Shown here: positions 2,183 to 8,570 of the stretch, piece after piece
Position numbering within the stretch: position 1 is the first letter of the stretch
Layout of the letters: the number at the start of each line of letters is the position of its first letter
DNA from: Fibrobacter sp.
GTDB lineage: Bacteria; Fibrobacterota; Fibrobacteria; Fibrobacterales; Fibrobacteraceae
Assembly: GCF_017551775.1 (NCBI RefSeq)
Contig: NZ_JAFZKX010000095.1
Location: forward strand, 1-45,922
Length of the DNA stretch: 45,922 nt
Direction: 5' to 3'
The notes under the pieces: generated by a model
The model's database searches: none
Told to the model about the DNA's origin: nothing
What the model saw: the letters and a program-made list of their open reading frames with translations, nothing else
Translations under genes and position numbers: made by a program

Positions 2183-3067
2183 CTATGCAAGGCGCGGTTT
2201 TCCGGTCCAGCCGAGCTTTTCGCGCAGCGCACCCACGAAACCGGTATGGCGCATGCGGATAAACGTGGTCACGGACTTGCTTTCGCTGAGTGTGACCTGG
2301 TAACCCGACTTCATTTCGACCGTAATTCGGCCATCAAAAACAAGGTCAAGCGGCCTGTCGACAGCGGATGCAATCTGCAACTTCTTGTCGGTAAGCGAAA
2401 GCACAAGCGGGCGCACGGAAAGACTGCTCGGGGCCACAGGCGTGAGCACGACAGCGGGCGTACTCGGGTGGATAATGGGGCCACCCGCCGCAAGATTGTA
2501 TGCGGTGGATCCCGTCGGGGTCGAAATCAACAGGGAATCGGCCCAGTATTCCGTCAGGTCCGTTCCATTGTAGGCGACATTCACGTTCACCATGCGGTCG
2601 GGAGCATGGGCGCGGATATGCACCTCGTTCAACACGGTCTGCTTCGCGACGCACTTCTTGCCGCAATAAACGGAAGCGTCAATCATCATGCGGTCGCGCG
2701 TAGAGAAATCACCGGCAATCAAATCGTCAAGCGTTTTCGAGAGGCCTTCCACCCTGCTTTCGGCAAGGAACCCCACGCGGCCCGCATTCACGCCCAAAAT
2801 GGGAATGCTGTGCCCGAGCGCAATGTGCGCGGCAGAAAGCACGGTACCATCTCCACCGATGGCAAGCAGCAGGTCCATGTTGCGCAGGCCCGGTTCCTTC
2901 ACCACGCGGATAGGCTTCTGCACCAGCCCGGAGAGGCTATCAAGCGCGAAGAACTTCACCTGCGGATGAGCGACCGCCCAGAGCGCAATCTGGTTCAACG
3001 CACAAGCGAGATCCGCGCTCTTGTCCTTAAAACCGACAATCCCGATTTTCTTGAAAGTGCCTTTCAT
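2183..3067 (-). CDS. nadK: NAD kinase
   Basis: The 294-residue protein has the NAD kinase hallmarks: GGDGT at residues 71-75 (nucleotide-binding and catalytic Asp), then NAGRVGFLAE, the LNEVHI segment, and STPTGSTAYNLAAGGPI, which contains the NAD/ATP-binding loop. It phosphorylates NAD to NADP with ATP or polyphosphate in the cytoplasm. Length fits the bacterial family. It starts 17 bases after the aroA-like stop, with a GAGG seven bases before ATG, and is co-directional with the aromatic genes. The link may be supply of NADP(H) to shikimate-pathway reductases, but that is inference. Confidence 0.95.
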   Translation of the reverse strand: MKGTFKKIGIVGFKDKSADLACALNQIALWAVAHPQVKFFALDSLSGLVQKPIRVVKEPGLRNMDLLLAIGGDGTVLSAAHIALGHSIPILGVNAGRVGFLAESRVEGLSKTLDDLIAGDFSTRDRMMIDASVYCGKKCVAKQTVLNEVHIRAHAPDRMVNVNVAYNGTDLTEYWADSLLISTPTGSTAYNLAAGGPIIHPSTPAVVLTPVAPSSLSVRPLVLSLTDKKLQIASAVDRPLDLVFDGRITVEMKSGYQVTLSESKSVTTFIRMRHTGFVGALREKLGWTGKPRLA

Positions 3068-3084: not shown

Positions 3085-4452
3085 TTAGCCTTCATTTTCG
3101 GTCTTTTCGGCGACCAGCACCTGTTTGAGCCGCTCGGCAACGCCCGGAAATACACGTTCCACGCAATCCAAGCCACCTACCGGCTCGTCGTTCTGGAGGG
3201 AAAGCGAAAGGACGCTCAGGGCAAGCCCCGTCTCGGCAGAGTCTCCCCCGTCGAATTCGCTCCCGTTCACGATGGTTTCCATCCCGCGAATGACAAGCCC
3301 GTCGTCGTAGACGCCGACTTCCACGCCCGTCTTGCGCAAGTTTTCGGCCAAGAACTCGTTCTTGACGCGCATCTCCTTGCGGTATTCCTTGGGCACGCGG
3401 AGGATGGTTTCGCCTTCGGCATAGCACGCGGCTACGGCGAGCAGCGGGAATTCGTCAAGCGCAGTCGCGATGGTGTCTTCGCTAAAGCGGCGACCCTGGA
3501 GGCGCTTGCCCGCAGCAAGCGGATAGATTTCCACATCGCCGTAGACATCGCCGAACTTTTCGCGGCGGGTAACGGTCTCGATGTTTGCGCCCATGCGCTT
3601 GAGGCACGTGAGGGCACCGGCGCGCGTGCTGTTCAAATCGACGTTCAGCAGGCGCACCACATTTTCCTTGGGCATGTTCCCGACAGTCGCGAGCAGGGCG
3701 AAAGCCGTCGCCTCGGTCGTATCGCCGGGCACGTAGTATTCGCGGCCGGTAATCACGCGAGCCTCCGAAAGTTCGGTAAACTGCGTGCGTTCAATCTTCT
3801 TGCCCTGCGCAATCATGAGGCGGCGTTCGAACTCGCTCAGTTGTTCCATGCCGCGGCCTTCGTAGCGAACCGGGACACCGAAATACATGAGCATCTTGGT
3901 CCACTGGTCATGAACCGTAGAGCGTTCCTCGAAACTCAGGTATTCCCCGCGCACGAGGGCACGCAGCAAGAGGCGGTTTCGCATCACGAAGGGCACATTC
4001 CCGAGGGAATCCTTCTTCAATGCGGGCTCTTCCACGGCGAACCGGAAAACGAACCTCGCGGGGGAATCCTCATCGACATTCAGCTTGAAATACTTGAGCA
4101 GGCATTCCTTGACGGATGCAACCTTCGCGATTCCCGCCTCGTCGGATTCCTCGGCGAGGGTGAAAACATGTTCGGGATCCTTGCTCGAAAGCGTCCAGAG
4201 GAGCACGTTCTCGGCTTCGGAAAAACCGCAGGGCAGCATCGACGGGAGCGAATACTGGAAGCCCTTGCCGTCGAGAACCAGCTGGTGGCCGTGCTGTTCG
4301 TAAACAAGCCCGAATTCCGCGAGCGCGCGGGCGAATTCCTCGGTACCGCTCGCCCATGCGAAATCTTCGAGCACGGTGCGACCGTTGACCAAAAGGCCCA
4401 TCACCAGGGTGAGCGCCATGCGTTCGCGATCTGGATTAAGCGTAAATTCCAT
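3085..4452 (-). CDS. aroA: EPSP synthase-like protein (AroA family, divergent)
   Basis: This 455-residue protein aligns with 3-phosphoshikimate 1-carboxyvinyltransferase, which joins PEP to shikimate 3-phosphate. Family segments visible are YVPGDTTEATAFALLA, the LDEFPLLAVAACYAEGET block containing the catalytic Asp, and AENLRKTGVEV. Several diagnostic motifs are missing: the N-terminal GxKSxSxR motif reads NPDRERMAL, the GTxMR loop is not recognisable, and KESDR is replaced around EYRKEMRVKNEF. Its position directly after tyrA (the ATG follows the TAG with no gap) and downstream of chorismate mutase supports a role in aromatic amino-acid synthesis. It may be a highly divergent active enzyme or a family member with another role. 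Homology is secure, activity is not. Confidence 0.75.
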   Translation of the reverse strand: MEFTLNPDRERMALTLVMGLLVNGRTVLEDFAWASGTEEFARALAEFGLVYEQHGHQLVLDGKGFQYSLPSMLPCGFSEAENVLLWTLSSKDPEHVFTLAEESDEAGIAKVASVKECLLKYFKLNVDEDSPARFVFRFAVEEPALKKDSLGNVPFVMRNRLLLRALVRGEYLSFEERSTVHDQWTKMLMYFGVPVRYEGRGMEQLSEFERRLMIAQGKKIERTQFTELSEARVITGREYYVPGDTTEATAFALLATVGNMPKENVVRLLNVDLNSTRAGALTCLKRMGANIETVTRREKFGDVYGDVEIYPLAAGKRLQGRRFSEDTIATALDEFPLLAVAACYAEGETILRVPKEYRKEMRVKNEFLAENLRKTGVEVGVYDDGLVIRGMETIVNGSEFDGGDSAETGLALSVLSLSLQNDEPVGGLDCVERVFPGVAERLKQVLVAEKTENEG

Positions 4453-5607
4453 CTAGCGTTCCTTCACTTCGTAGCCTAGGTAGCGCAAAATTTTCACAGC
4501 GCGGGCAGCCTCGTCGGGCGTCTTGAAAGCAAGCAGGAGGGTGCCCGCGACATTCTCGCGAACCTTCATGAGTTCGATATCGCGAATGTTCAAGCCTTCT
4601 TCGGCAAGCGGCTGCATCACGCTGAGCAGCGCTCCCGGCTTGTCCTTGAGCTGCACCGTAATTTCGGAGAAGGCGGCGCCGGCATTGCGGCCCGGAGCGA
4701 ACAAACTCGCACGGCCTTCGTTGCCCGCCTTGAAAATCGTCTCGAGCCCGGCGGAACGGTCATCCGTCGCAGGCTTTCCATCCACCACGACATCGAGGGC
4801 GTTCATGGCCTCGATCGTCTTCTCGAGCCCGTCTCGGACTTCGCCGAGCGCACGTACGGTCTCGTCGCGGTTCGTGACCGCGATGTCATGCCACATTCCC
4901 CACCCACTCGCGGCGATGCGCGTCATGTCGCGGAAGGCGCGGCCCGCATAGTGCTGGTAGTTGTGCTTGAGCAGGCGTTCGGGAAGGTTGCCCGCAAGCG
5001 TAGAACTGAGCATCTGGGGCATGTGCGAAACCCATGCCATCGTGCGGTCATGGTGTTCCGGCGGAAAAACGACGGGAGTCGCCCCGAGGAACTTCACCAG
5101 TTCCAGGAGTTCGGCGTATGCGGATTCCTCGGTACCCTCCGGAGGGCACACGAACCAGTAGGCGTTCTCGAAAATCGCGGGGTCGTTGTGTTCGCAGGTC
5201 CGCTTCTCGGAACCGGCCATCGGGTGGCTCCCGACAAAGCGGAACGGAGCAGGCAGCTTCACGCCCGCCTTGCAGATTTCGACCTTCGTAGAGCCGATAT
5301 CACTCACGAGGCACGGCGCACTGGACCCGGCATCGTTCTGCTCGGTCCACTTCACATGCGCAAGCGCATCGATGGTCTTCAAGATATGCAGAATCGGGCT
5401 GCACAGCAAAATGAGGTCGCAGTCCCTGGACCACTGTTCGACATCGCCGTATTCGAAAAATTCATCGGCAAGTTCCAGCTCGCGGGCGCGCGCAAGCGTC
5501 ACGGGAGAACTCACGGCCCGGATTACAGTCGGGCGCTTTGCCTGCTTGAGTGCAGAGGCGATGGAACCCGCAAGCAGCCCGAAACCTACCAGCGCTATAC
5601 GTTTCAT
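4453..5607 (-). CDS. tyrA: Prephenate dehydrogenase with C-terminal ACT domain
   Basis: The 384-residue protein starts with a Rossmann NAD-binding motif (VGFGLLAGSIA). It then has the VSDIGSTK segment and the GSHPMAGSE motif that is diagnostic of prephenate/arogenate dehydrogenases. Residues from about 305 to 384 form an ACT regulatory domain (LKDKPGALLSVMQPLAEEGL), which in this family binds tyrosine or related amino acids for feedback control. The enzyme oxidatively decarboxylates prephenate to 4-hydroxyphenylpyruvate on the way to tyrosine. Its ATG follows the TAG of the chorismate mutase gene directly, and a GGAGG lies within the end of that gene, so the two are translationally coupled. 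Confidence 0.93.
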   Translation of the reverse strand: MKRIALVGFGLLAGSIASALKQAKRPTVIRAVSSPVTLARARELELADEFFEYGDVEQWSRDCDLILLCSPILHILKTIDALAHVKWTEQNDAGSSAPCLVSDIGSTKVEICKAGVKLPAPFRFVGSHPMAGSEKRTCEHNDPAIFENAYWFVCPPEGTEESAYAELLELVKFLGATPVVFPPEHHDRTMAWVSHMPQMLSSTLAGNLPERLLKHNYQHYAGRAFRDMTRIAASGWGMWHDIAVTNRDETVRALGEVRDGLEKTIEAMNALDVVVDGKPATDDRSAGLETIFKAGNEGRASLFAPGRNAGAAFSEITVQLKDKPGALLSVMQPLAEEGLNIRDIELMKVRENVAGTLLLAFKTPDEAARAVKILRYLGYEVKER

Positions 5608-5871
5608 CTATTCCTCCACCTTGCGGGTCTCTTCCATGATAACCTTGAAAATGCGGCGCACCGATTCACCGGAAAGCGGGCCACCGGCCTTTTCCGCCTT
5701 TTCGGCAACTTCGGCCAGCACGGCCTCTTCACGAGCCGTATCCAGCACAGGCAGGCCCTTCTGTTTCTTGATTTTTCCAATTTCAGTCGCATAGACGGCG
5801 CGCTTGTTCAAGAGCGCGATTACCGAATCTGTCAATTCGTCTATGCGTATGCGCCAGTCTTCTATTTCCAT
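5608..5871 (-). CDS. Chorismate mutase, AroQ type
   Basis: The short all-helical protein (87 residues from the ATG at 5871) matches AroQ-type chorismate mutase: WRIRIDELTDSVIALLNKR, then AxxIGKIKKQKGLPVLDTAREE, and an IFKVIMEETRK helix. The active-site Arg, Lys and Glu pattern of the family is present. It converts chorismate to prephenate and feeds the next gene, tyrA. A longer frame could start at 5913, but its extra residues (MGVKRACQITIFFR) do not look like the family. A TATCTT box ends seven bases before the ATG at 5871, suggesting a leaderless transcript that begins the operon here. Confidence 0.88.
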   Translation of the reverse strand: MEIEDWRIRIDELTDSVIALLNKRAVYATEIGKIKKQKGLPVLDTAREEAVLAEVAEKAEKAGGPLSGESVRRIFKVIMEETRKVEE

Positions 5872-5990
5872 ACGAAAAAAGATAGTAATTTGGCAAGCCC
5901 GTTTTACGCCCATCCACCGCCTCTCCCGCCCGCTTTTTCGCCCCTTTCAATACACTTGATACAGTTGGTTTATAATTTATTTTCATCGCA

Positions 5991-6019
5991 TTGCGACCCC
6001 CACTTTACGGACCTATATT
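5991..6019 (+). promoter_or_regulatory. Predicted sigma70-type promoter of the lichenase gene
   Basis: TTGCGA (5991-5996) and TATATT (6014-6019) are separated by 17 bases. The predicted start near 6026 gives a 5' leader of about 25 bases carrying the AGGAGG ribosome binding site at 6036-6041. A TATAAT at 5971-5976 is an alternative -10 but has no well-spaced -35. Confidence 0.55.
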
Positions 6020-6050
6020 AAGGACACACGTGTTTAGGAGGTTGTTTTTT

Positions 6051-7130
6051 ATGAAAATCAACAAAATTCTTTCGGCAGGAACCCTTGCGGTAATGACCAT
6101 GGCAGCAACAACTATTGCAAAAGACTTCAGCGGTGCAGAACTCTACACCAATGAAGAATTTTCTTACGGTAAATTCGAAGCCCGTATGAAGATGGCGGCC
6201 GCTTCGGGCACTGTCAGTTCCATGTTCCTCTACCAGAACGGCTCCGAACAGGCCAGCGCACAGCGTTGGGTCGAAGTCGATATCGAAGTCCTGGGCAAGA
6301 GCCCCAACAGTTTCCAGTCCAACATCATCACGGGCAAAGCCGGCGCACAGATCACCAGTGAAAAGCACCACGCCGTCAGTCCGGCAGCAGACCAGGGGTT
6401 CCACACCTACGGTCTCGAATGGACGCCCGATTACGTCCGCTGGACCCTCGACGGAAAAGAAGTCCGCAAGACCAACAAGGGCGAAAACAAGAACCAGGTC
6501 GAAAACCTGATCGGTACGCAGGGCCTCCGCTTCAACATTTGGTCTTCTGAAACTGCTGAATGGGTCGGCCAGTTTGACGAATCCAAACTCCCGCTCTTCC
6601 AGTTCATCAACTGGGTCAAGGTTTACAAATACACTCCGGGCAGGGGCGAAAACGGCAGCGACTTCACGCTCGACTGGACGGACGATTTCAATTCGTTCAA
6701 CAGCTCTCGCTGGAGCAAGGGCAACTGGACCTTCGACGGCAACCGCGTTGACCTGACCCCGAACAATATTTACACCAAGGATGGCATGCTGATTCTCGCC
6801 CTCACCCGCAAGGGCCAGGAAAGCTTCAACGGCCAGGTCCCGGTTGATAACGAACCGTCCCCAATTTCTTCGAGCAGCAACGTCACTCCGCCGTCTTCGA
6901 GCAGCGTTACCCCGCCGCCCAGCTCCAGCAGCGAAGTGATGCCGCCGCTCTCCTCCAGCAGCATCGTGATGCCCCCCTACTCCAGCAGCGTCGTGGACGC
7001 CATCCCCCAGATGCGCGCAAAGCAGCTGCAGGACAAGGAAACCCACACCGTCAACGCCAAGGGCGCCCGCGTCAACAACACCCGCGCAAGCGATCCCCGC
7101 AACCGTTACCGCGTGAACTTCAAATTTTAA
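6051..7130 (+). CDS. Secreted 1,3-1,4-beta-glucanase (lichenase), circularly permuted GH16
   Basis: The 359-residue precursor has a signal peptide (about residues 1-23, ending TIAK) and a GH16 domain that hydrolyses beta-1,4 bonds next to beta-1,3 bonds in lichenan and cereal beta-glucan. The catalytic motif WVEVDIEVLG places Glu75, Asp77 and Glu79 near the N-terminus. The strand normally at the N-terminus of Bacillus lichenases (DFTLDWTDDF through GMLILALTRKG) comes after it, at about 204-254. This is the circular permutation known from the Fibrobacter enzyme. Residues 270-315 are a Ser/Pro linker (PPSSSS units), followed by a basic C-terminal tail ending YRVNFKF. AGGAGG at 6036 fixes the start at 6051. 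The regulator at 7197 follows. Confidence 0.95.
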   Translation: MKINKILSAGTLAVMTMAATTIAKDFSGAELYTNEEFSYGKFEARMKMAAASGTVSSMFLYQNGSEQASAQRWVEVDIEVLGKSPNSFQSNIITGKAGAQITSEKHHAVSPAADQGFHTYGLEWTPDYVRWTLDGKEVRKTNKGENKNQVENLIGTQGLRFNIWSSETAEWVGQFDESKLPLFQFINWVKVYKYTPGRGENGSDFTLDWTDDFNSFNSSRWSKGNWTFDGNRVDLTPNNIYTKDGMLILALTRKGQESFNGQVPVDNEPSPISSSSNVTPPSSSSVTPPPSSSSEVMPPLSSSSIVMPPYSSSVVDAIPQMRAKQLQDKETHTVNAKGARVNNTRASDPRNRYRVNFKF

Positions 7131-7147: not shown

Positions 7148-7185
7148 AACAAAGTCTACGTGGCGAATGTCGCGTAGACTTTGTT
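7148..7185. promoter_or_regulatory. 13-bp perfect inverted repeat between lichenase and regulator genes
   Basis: AACAAAGTCTACG (7148-7160) and CGTAGACTTTGTT (7173-7185) are perfect inverted repeats separated by 12 bases. As RNA this would form a hairpin followed by a short U-run, so it may end the lichenase transcript. It also abuts the TATTTT box at 7185-7190 in front of the regulator gene and could be an operator for that regulator. The two readings are not exclusive. Confidence 0.6.
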
Positions 7186-7196
7186 ATTTTATAGCC

Positions 7197-8570
7197 ATGC
7201 GCAAAGAACTCGCACTCATCCTGGAAAAACTCCCGCACAAAGACGGGGACAGGCTACCCAGCGTACGCGAAATCATGAAGGTGTACGGCTTGTCGTCAAG
7301 CACGGTACAGGCGGCTCTCCGCACGCTCGAGCGCGAATCGAAAATCTGCCGCATCCAGGGGAAAGGCTGCTTCTGGACATCGCAGGGCATCACCACGATA
7401 TACGCGGGCAATTCCGTCCCCGCAATCCGCGAATCCGCCATGGAAAAAGTGGAGAGGCTCTTCCGCGAGGACTGGGAACGCGGCGTGTTCAAGACAGATG
7501 ACAACCTCCCCCTCATGAAGGAACTGTCCATCCGCTACAACATCTCGCAGGCCGTAATCCGCAAGTTCCTGAACCTGGAGGAATCCCGCGGGATCCTCGA
7601 GAGGGTCGGGCGTCATTACCGCTTCACCCGCAAGGACGAGAGAAAAACGGGTGCCTCCTTGAGCGAAATCATTTTTGTCACCCGCTGCAACAGCTGGGGC
7701 GGCTTCACCGCCGAAAGCGAGCGCGAGATGGATTTTTTGCGCATGGTCTACAAGAAGGCGGGTGCCGAACACTACAAGCTCATTTTGCTCGGCCTGAACG
7801 AAAAGACCGGAACGCTTATCGACCGGAGCGGCAAGCCGCGCAAGCTCACTGACTTCCGCAACGCCGTCGGCGCAGTTCTTTCTACCCTGCTCGTGATGGA
7901 ACCAAAAAAACTCCTGCAGCTATTCGCCGAGGTCACCTACCCGGTCGCCGTGTGGTGGGAACATCCCGTGCAGTCGCTGCCCGAACGCTACATCCGCAAG
8001 GACAACTGGACGTTCTTCAATTCCACATTCGGTCCCGGCCCCGGAAAGGAGATGGGCAAGTACCTGCTTTCGCGCGGGGTACACGATGTCGCCTTCTTTT
8101 CGCCATACCATGACAGTTCCTGGTCCATAGAGCGCCTCGCCGGCCTGCGGGAAATGGGCCTGAGCGTCATGGACTGCACCGACGATGAATTCGCAAGCCC
8201 GTGGGACTACAAGCAAATCGCCCGCAGCAAGGTGGAAAAGCATTCGGTGGAAGCCTACGCCCGCGAACTCCTGAAGCGCAAAATGGTCAGCATCCTGGAA
8301 AACCGGGATTACGGGCAAATCCCCATCGTGTGCGTGAACGACGACGTCGCATCCGCCCTGCTCGAACTCCAGGAAGAAGGCCGCATCGGCCCGCTGGGAC
8401 AGCTCTACGCCTTCGACAATTCTGCGGAAAGCTACCTGCTGAGGCTACCCTCGTACGATTTCAACACGCAGGCGCTCGTCGACCGCATGTTCTACAGCCT
8501 GGTAAACAGCGACGCGTTCCACATGCAGCACCGCATCCAGCAGGTGCTCGGCCAGGTCGTGGAAAAATAA
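7197..8570 (+). CDS. GntR-type regulator with LacI-like sensor domain
   Basis: From the ATG at 7197 the protein has 457 residues. Residues about 5-65 form a GntR winged helix (RLPSVREIMKVYGLSSSTVQ, then GKGCFW in the wing). Residues about 85-150 look like a second, GntR-like winged helix (LPLMKELSIRYNISQAVIRK, then VGRHYRF). The remainder resembles the periplasmic-binding-like sensor domain of LacI/GalR regulators, with a late QIPIVCVNDDVASALLEL segment, so a sugar effector is likely. It lies 66 bases downstream of the lichenase gene on the same strand, suggesting control of beta-glucan use, but the target is inference. No Shine-Dalgarno sequence is visible; TATTTT lies six bases before the ATG, so the mRNA may be leaderless. 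Confidence 0.8.
   Translation: MRKELALILEKLPHKDGDRLPSVREIMKVYGLSSSTVQAALRTLERESKICRIQGKGCFWTSQGITTIYAGNSVPAIRESAMEKVERLFREDWERGVFKTDDNLPLMKELSIRYNISQAVIRKFLNLEESRGILERVGRHYRFTRKDERKTGASLSEIIFVTRCNSWGGFTAESEREMDFLRMVYKKAGAEHYKLILLGLNEKTGTLIDRSGKPRKLTDFRNAVGAVLSTLLVMEPKKLLQLFAEVTYPVAVWWEHPVQSLPERYIRKDNWTFFNSTFGPGPGKEMGKYLLSRGVHDVAFFSPYHDSSWSIERLAGLREMGLSVMDCTDDEFASPWDYKQIARSKVEKHSVEAYARELLKRKMVSILENRDYGQIPIVCVNDDVASALLELQEEGRIGPLGQLYAFDNSAESYLLRLPSYDFNTQALVDRMFYSLVNSDAFHMQHRIQQVLGQVVEK

Follow-up and report, generated by a model that had tools for sequence, protein, structure and literature searches.

The pseudo-EPSP synthase (AroA-like, 455 amino acids) described here probably derives from an aroA linked to tyrA and has been kept for something other than catalysis. 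Going by gene position, its most likely job would be to regulate or scaffold the enzymes of the tyrosine branch. EPSP synthase (EPSPS) is the enzyme targeted by glyphosate, and the gene lies at positions 3085–4452 on the minus strand of the window, that is, the whole stretch of 45,922 nucleotides of Fibrobacter sp. DNA that was analysed. The protein matches PF00275, is predicted to have the EPSPS fold over its full length and retains 1 of 19 active-site residues. A preliminary description of this DNA recognized the relative of AroA and its missing motifs; that such disarmed copies form an ancient family, spread through the phylum and maintained by selection, went unnoticed there.

Operon context and relationship to EPSPS

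A tight minus-strand cluster in the window comprises a type II chorismate mutase of the AroQ class (5608–5913; PF01817) upstream of TyrA, a prephenate dehydrogenase with a C-terminal ACT-like domain (4453–5607; PF02153 and PF20463), followed by the pseudo-EPSPS and by its downstream partner in gene order, the NAD kinase NadK (2183–3067; PF01513 and PF20143). The position between tyrA and nadK and the relationship to AroA, both given in the preliminary description, were thus borne out. The pseudo-EPSPS frame starts with ATG, the stop codons of chorismate mutase and TyrA, both TAG, directly abut the ATG of the next gene, and 17 bases separate the pseudo-EPSPS from NadK. Chorismate mutase, TyrA (together 4453–5913) and the pseudo-EPSPS share one frame, interrupted by the two TAG stops, each followed by ATG. 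A fusion of TyrA and the pseudo-EPSPS, or read-through of the stop, was rejected because, among the 72 loci compared, the two genes were in the same frame at only 17 and had a zero gap at 10, and many other junctions overlapped as TAATG or TGATG; translational coupling is thus a simpler explanation. The "open frames" of about 760–950 amino acids met in scans were read as frames running past a stop or as long high-GC frames overlapping TyrA, not as fusions. Next to the cluster, a GH16 glucanase (5991–7130; TTG start in the list of open reading frames) is transcribed away from the operon and is followed by a GntR-type regulator (7167–8570). A record of Fibrobacter succinogenes (L034) encodes a protein identical to the pseudo-EPSPS of the window.

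By sequence, the relationship to AroA is clear for the C-terminal half only, with PF00275 matching residues 231–442 alone (72 bits; gathering cut-off 22.8) and the equivalog cut-off of TIGR01356 missed (97.9 against 287.25 bits). The best NCBIfam match was the TyrA–AroA fusion model PRK14806 (102.8 bits; cut-off 902). The closest solved sequences were the EPSPSs of Bacillus halodurans (E 2e-25), Coxiella, CP4 and Acinetobacter, and the E. coli EPSPS chains were far weaker matches (E 0.02 to 0.05). The N-terminal half has little sequence similarity to AroA, and residue mapping there rests on a MAFFT alignment together with the aligned ranges of an AlphaFold2 model (pLDDT 74.7; pTM 0.63) built from the window protein and 18 Fibrobacter relatives (67–100% identical). 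In VIA-align, model residues 1–452 paired with 3rmt_B (Z 28.4; 386 residues; 3.8 Å). In the superposition on E. coli AroA that had been proposed in the preliminary description, model residues 1–449 paired with residues 14–427 of 1g6s (Z 25.5; 355 residues; 3.5 Å). The whole protein is thus predicted to have the two-domain EPSPS fold, well beyond the half recognizable by sequence. Structures of MurA and NikO (4fqd) share this fold superfamily with the model at Z of about 24, and at the sequence level the only match among them was the MurA chain 4r7u (E 0.38).

The genome matched PF00275 in three places, namely contig C40 (425.6 bits), contig C15, which carries a MurA-like sequence (345.8 bits), and the window (67.1 bits), and at least one match over the cut-off was found in all 167 Fibrobacterota genomes. 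The copy on C40 is a canonical AroA with the motifs PGSKSITNR, GNAGTAMR and RVKETDR intact, the kind of second copy for which a genome search had been suggested. Two readings had been offered from the window alone: a strongly altered enzyme serving the shikimate pathway, or, with a further aroA elsewhere in the genome, a pseudo-enzyme or a protein of new activity. The latter agrees with the AroA on C40 and with the loss of active-site residues, whereas the former fails, with that AroA present and no conserved Lys or Arg near enough to the lost residues to substitute for them.

Loss of the active site

The 19 positions compared are those that we take to form the active site of studied EPSPSs, including the S3P and PEP residues K22, S23, R27, N94, G96, T97, R100, R124, S169–Q171, K340, E341, R344, R386 and K411. 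The E. coli numbering was checked against the AroA from NC_000913 (L140), and the alignment held 59 operon copies (the window protein and those of 58 loci), 22 canonical AroAs and E. coli AroA, the partial copy L069 having been dropped and L076 moved to the canonical set before counting. E. coli S197 and Y200 were misaligned (anchoring on the FGV motif by eye gives R177 and V180), and both were left out of the 19 positions.

All three motif changes noted in the preliminary description were recovered in this alignment. In the altered GxKSxSxR segment (residues 9–14; 4411–4428, minus strand), K22, S23 and R27 read R9, E10 and L14, model residue 1 pairing with residue 14 of 1g6s. The unrecognizable GTxMR loop, GNAGTAMR in canonical copies, reads FSEAENV (residues 77–83; 4204–4224, minus strand), with F77, E79, A80 and V83 in place of N94, G96, T97 and R100. 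Instead of the KESDR motif, the stretch K340-E341-T-D-R344 reads EMRVK (residues 360–364; 3361–3375, minus strand), with E360, M361 and K364 at the three numbered positions. R124, S169, S170, Q171, H385, R386 and K411 are also replaced, and only the catalytic D313 is retained, as D333 (3454–3456, minus strand), a position with D in 22 and E in 25 of the 59 copies. The canonical AroA of the same genome retains 18 of the 19 residues. The operon copies retain 0–4 (mean 1.27) and the canonical AroAs 16–19 (mean 18.4), counts that are not independent since the rows include closely related species; the start codons of relatives were chosen by rule, which leaves the beginning of some rows uncertain. 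When 19 columns were drawn at random (2000 draws), the operon copies matched E. coli at 3.14 of them (sd 1.05); the loss is therefore heavier at active-site columns than elsewhere in the alignment.

In 69 operon copies, no column with at least 70% conservation offered a Lys, Arg, Ser or His near a lost residue as a possible replacement, and sister species do not share the local KE of the window protein (K359-E360). In copies of genus g4 (about 360–380 amino acids), the GNAGTAMR loop region is deleted together with the rest of the stretch matching E. coli 88–128, as shown for L082. By alignment, the pseudo-EPSPS is thus an enzyme homologue without its catalytic residues. It resembles AroA (PF00275, TIGR01356) in the predicted two-domain fold, in the kept D242 of the GD/PGD motif, in D or E at D313 and in several structural Gly, Ala and Leu columns; it differs in the loss of the S3P and PEP residues, in its score below the TIGR01356 cut-off, in a lengthened segment with an invariant R211 and in the presence of a canonical copy elsewhere. 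If S3P and PEP binding is gone, as these residues suggest, the question of an unusual glyphosate response of this protein would be moot. Automatic annotation could nevertheless name it EPSP synthase, and the glyphosate response or pathway redundancy of rumen Fibrobacter could thereby be misread.

Selection and distribution in Fibrobacterota

The dN/dS ratios of the pseudo-EPSPS gene of the window, obtained by the Nei–Gojobori method against 17 relatives, were 0.05–0.20 for 16 of them, with one saturated, and the same method gave 0.05–0.12 for TyrA and 0.06–0.23 for the canonical AroA (two saturated). In 29 pairs with a TyrA dS below 1.2, the ratio for the pseudo-EPSPS was 0.02–0.24. The pseudo-EPSPS is thus a working gene, on which purifying selection acts as it does on the genes beside it. 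Searched against 167 Fibrobacterota genomes, a profile built from 18 diverse operon copies (A2) detected it at E ≤ 1e-50 in 155, with an open frame in nearly every case; the protein is thus kept as a functional one, as expected of a pseudoenzyme. A scan of genome contigs with the window protein itself gave 18 loci, all from Fibrobacter. In f4 copies (L063–L068), the first half carries long Ala/Glu-rich insertions, giving proteins of 480–617 amino acids, and the C-terminal half is well kept.

The 12 genomes without a match at this threshold were G114, G138, G148, G120, G003, G024, G001 and five genomes of family f8. A search of six non-carriers with the window TyrA found no TyrA in G114, G138, G120, G148 and G003, and in G024 no more than 770 bases lie between TyrA and the end of its contig, so the absences in these six are most simply explained by gaps in the assemblies. 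The G001 (f6) contig stops at TyrA, and presence there cannot be judged. In the f8 genomes G028 and G026, NadK comes after TyrA with about 10 bases or fewer between them, and the pseudo-EPSPS is cleanly missing; in G029 and G030, TyrA and NadK are on different contigs, and neither was found in G027 (69% complete). Clean loss was thus seen in f8 only, in two genomes. In the TyrA and NadK trees, f8 was sister to f7, f9 and f11 together, weakly so for NadK.

The order (chorismate mutase–)TyrA–pseudo-EPSPS–NadK was found in f1, f2, f4, f5, f7, f9 and f11. The exceptions were L062 (G153), with no NadK nearby, L086 and L173 (G010), with no NadK found, and L080, L068 and L069, without TyrA in the examined stretch; no AroQ-type chorismate mutase was adjacent in the f7, f9 and f11 loci. 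In G166 (f13), the pseudo-EPSPS lies between chorismate mutase and NadK, and TyrA was found only as a sub-cut-off match elsewhere. The same slot in f13, in the class members and in f7, f9 and f11 argues, by parsimony, for ancestral presence, vertical inheritance and loss in f8. From its residues, the family seems to illustrate well how an enzyme of core metabolism can be disarmed early in a phylum and still be held by selection in its old operon. Our literature search, with subscription journals mostly beyond its reach, found no paper on this EPSPS copy.

Origin and possible role

The available part of a 2005 study describes tyrA and aroA as adjacent or fused in many bacteria and reports that in Pseudomonas syringae the EPSPS domain fused to TyrA (AroF) lost about 200 residues, a separate gene having been acquired for the step; the remnant, it was suggested, might become a new regulatory domain (PMC1173090). 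The family in Fibrobacterota resembles a long-finished instance of this scenario. In both, the linked EPSPS is inactivated and a separate gene does the step; the P. syringae case, as far as the available text goes, is a deletion in one species, whereas the Fibrobacterota copy is near full-length, unfused, phylum-wide and under selection (PMC1173090). The idea that leftover tyrA-linked EPSPS parts turn into regulators thus becomes testable. In the bifunctional TyrA–AroA proteins (PRK14806; Acinetobacter baumannii 5buf, numbered 326–751), the AroA part likewise follows TyrA, but in the window the two are separate frames with a TAG between them, the score is far under the cut-off of 902, and the AroA part is non-catalytic as judged by its residues. 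A shikimate-pathway domain kept without activity, as the pseudo-EPSPS would be by its sequence, is also described for the dehydroquinase domain of Candida albicans Aro1 in the part of that report available, which differs in being a domain of a multi-enzyme protein and in concerning a different enzyme and lineage (PMC9074039).

Considering these results, we propose the following scenario. An ancestral aroA would have been linked to tyrA, as in other bacteria; a separate aroA may then have taken over the pathway step, after which the linked copy would have lost catalysis and kept a non-catalytic job. The pseudo-EPSPS may be translated together with TyrA, and the segment around R211 may serve as a contact surface. 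This segment (residues 200–238; 3739–3855, minus strand) lies before the PGD motif, exceeds its E. coli counterpart in length and contains the family-specific motif E..RR.......K.E (residues 207–221; 3790–3834, minus strand), whose R211 is present in 69 of 69 copies; the model has low pLDDT at 195–207 and 217–242, around a helix at 207–215. Because of their position, chorismate mutase and TyrA are the best guess at partners, and a regulatory or scaffold job with them is the leading candidate, which we put forward tentatively. That this ancient family is a free-standing regulatory subunit of tyrosine biosynthesis across the phylum, with the invariant-Arg segment as its contact or sensor, is a more doubtful proposal. 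TyrA cannot be the partner everywhere, since G166 lacks a TyrA above the family cut-off, and neither TyrA nor NadK needs the pseudo-EPSPS in f8, where they stand side by side without it. The f7, f9 and f11 loci, with no AroQ-type chorismate mutase next to the gene, also count against the proposed partnership.

Replacement of the ACT domain of TyrA by the pseudo-EPSPS was also considered. In a scan of nine TyrAs, five beside a pseudo-EPSPS had no ACT match (L077, L174, L175, L085 and L087), their relatives having ACT, and both scanned f8 TyrAs (L183 and L181), without a pseudo-EPSPS, had ACT; L079 and L098, however, have both, the ACT match of L098 being below the cut-off. The pattern is compatible with such a swap and is not evidence for it, because nearly all genomes have a pseudo-EPSPS.

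The chief alternative, if a rather unlikely one, is a new enzymatic activity: the EPSPS cleft would have been rebuilt for another substrate, perhaps aromatic or phosphorylated, with R211, R321/R322 and D333 in the new site. Strong purifying selection would fit such an enzyme, as would the family-specific charged residues, namely the invariant R211 and R210, K219, R286, E298, R321 and R322, the last six conserved in 49–58 of the 69 copies, and the D or E at D333 in 47 of 59. The invariant columns, however, are few (R211 and the three glycines G380, G385 and G390), unlike an active site, the domain 1 segment is gone in g4 copies, f4 copies carry long first-half insertions, and the R211 segment is mostly of low confidence in the model. 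Service to NadK or to a protein outside the operon, rather than to the tyrosine branch, is improbable; NadK directly adjoins the pseudo-EPSPS at most loci, G166 without a recognizable TyrA among them, but it stands without the pseudo-EPSPS in f8 and was not found beside it in G153 (L062) and G010 (L173). An active EPSPS taking its residues from shifted positions, for which the PF00275 score and the retained D313 equivalent could be cited, is very improbable and was ruled out as the pathway enzyme, given 18 of 19 residues lost, the lack of conserved basic or Ser residues in their vicinity, a K359-E360 not conserved in sister species and the canonical AroA of the genome. Decay as a pseudogene, which the lost motifs and the clean loss in f8 might suggest, was rejected on the dN/dS ratios, similar to those of tyrA and canonical aroA, and on the open-frame copies in 155 of 167 genomes, and has next to no probability. 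A pseudo-EPSPS kept for a non-catalytic role, most likely in the tyrosine branch, is the reading that we prefer.

The canonical AroA of the genus has a feature of its own, a Ser at the position of E. coli P101 (GNAGTAMRS), seen in the copy of this genome (1480–2793 of L001, minus strand), in 17 of 17 relatives (L141–L157) and in L158 and L160, L159 not matching the search pattern. This substitution reduces sensitivity to glyphosate, and PDB titles include E. coli Pro101Ser EPSPS structures.
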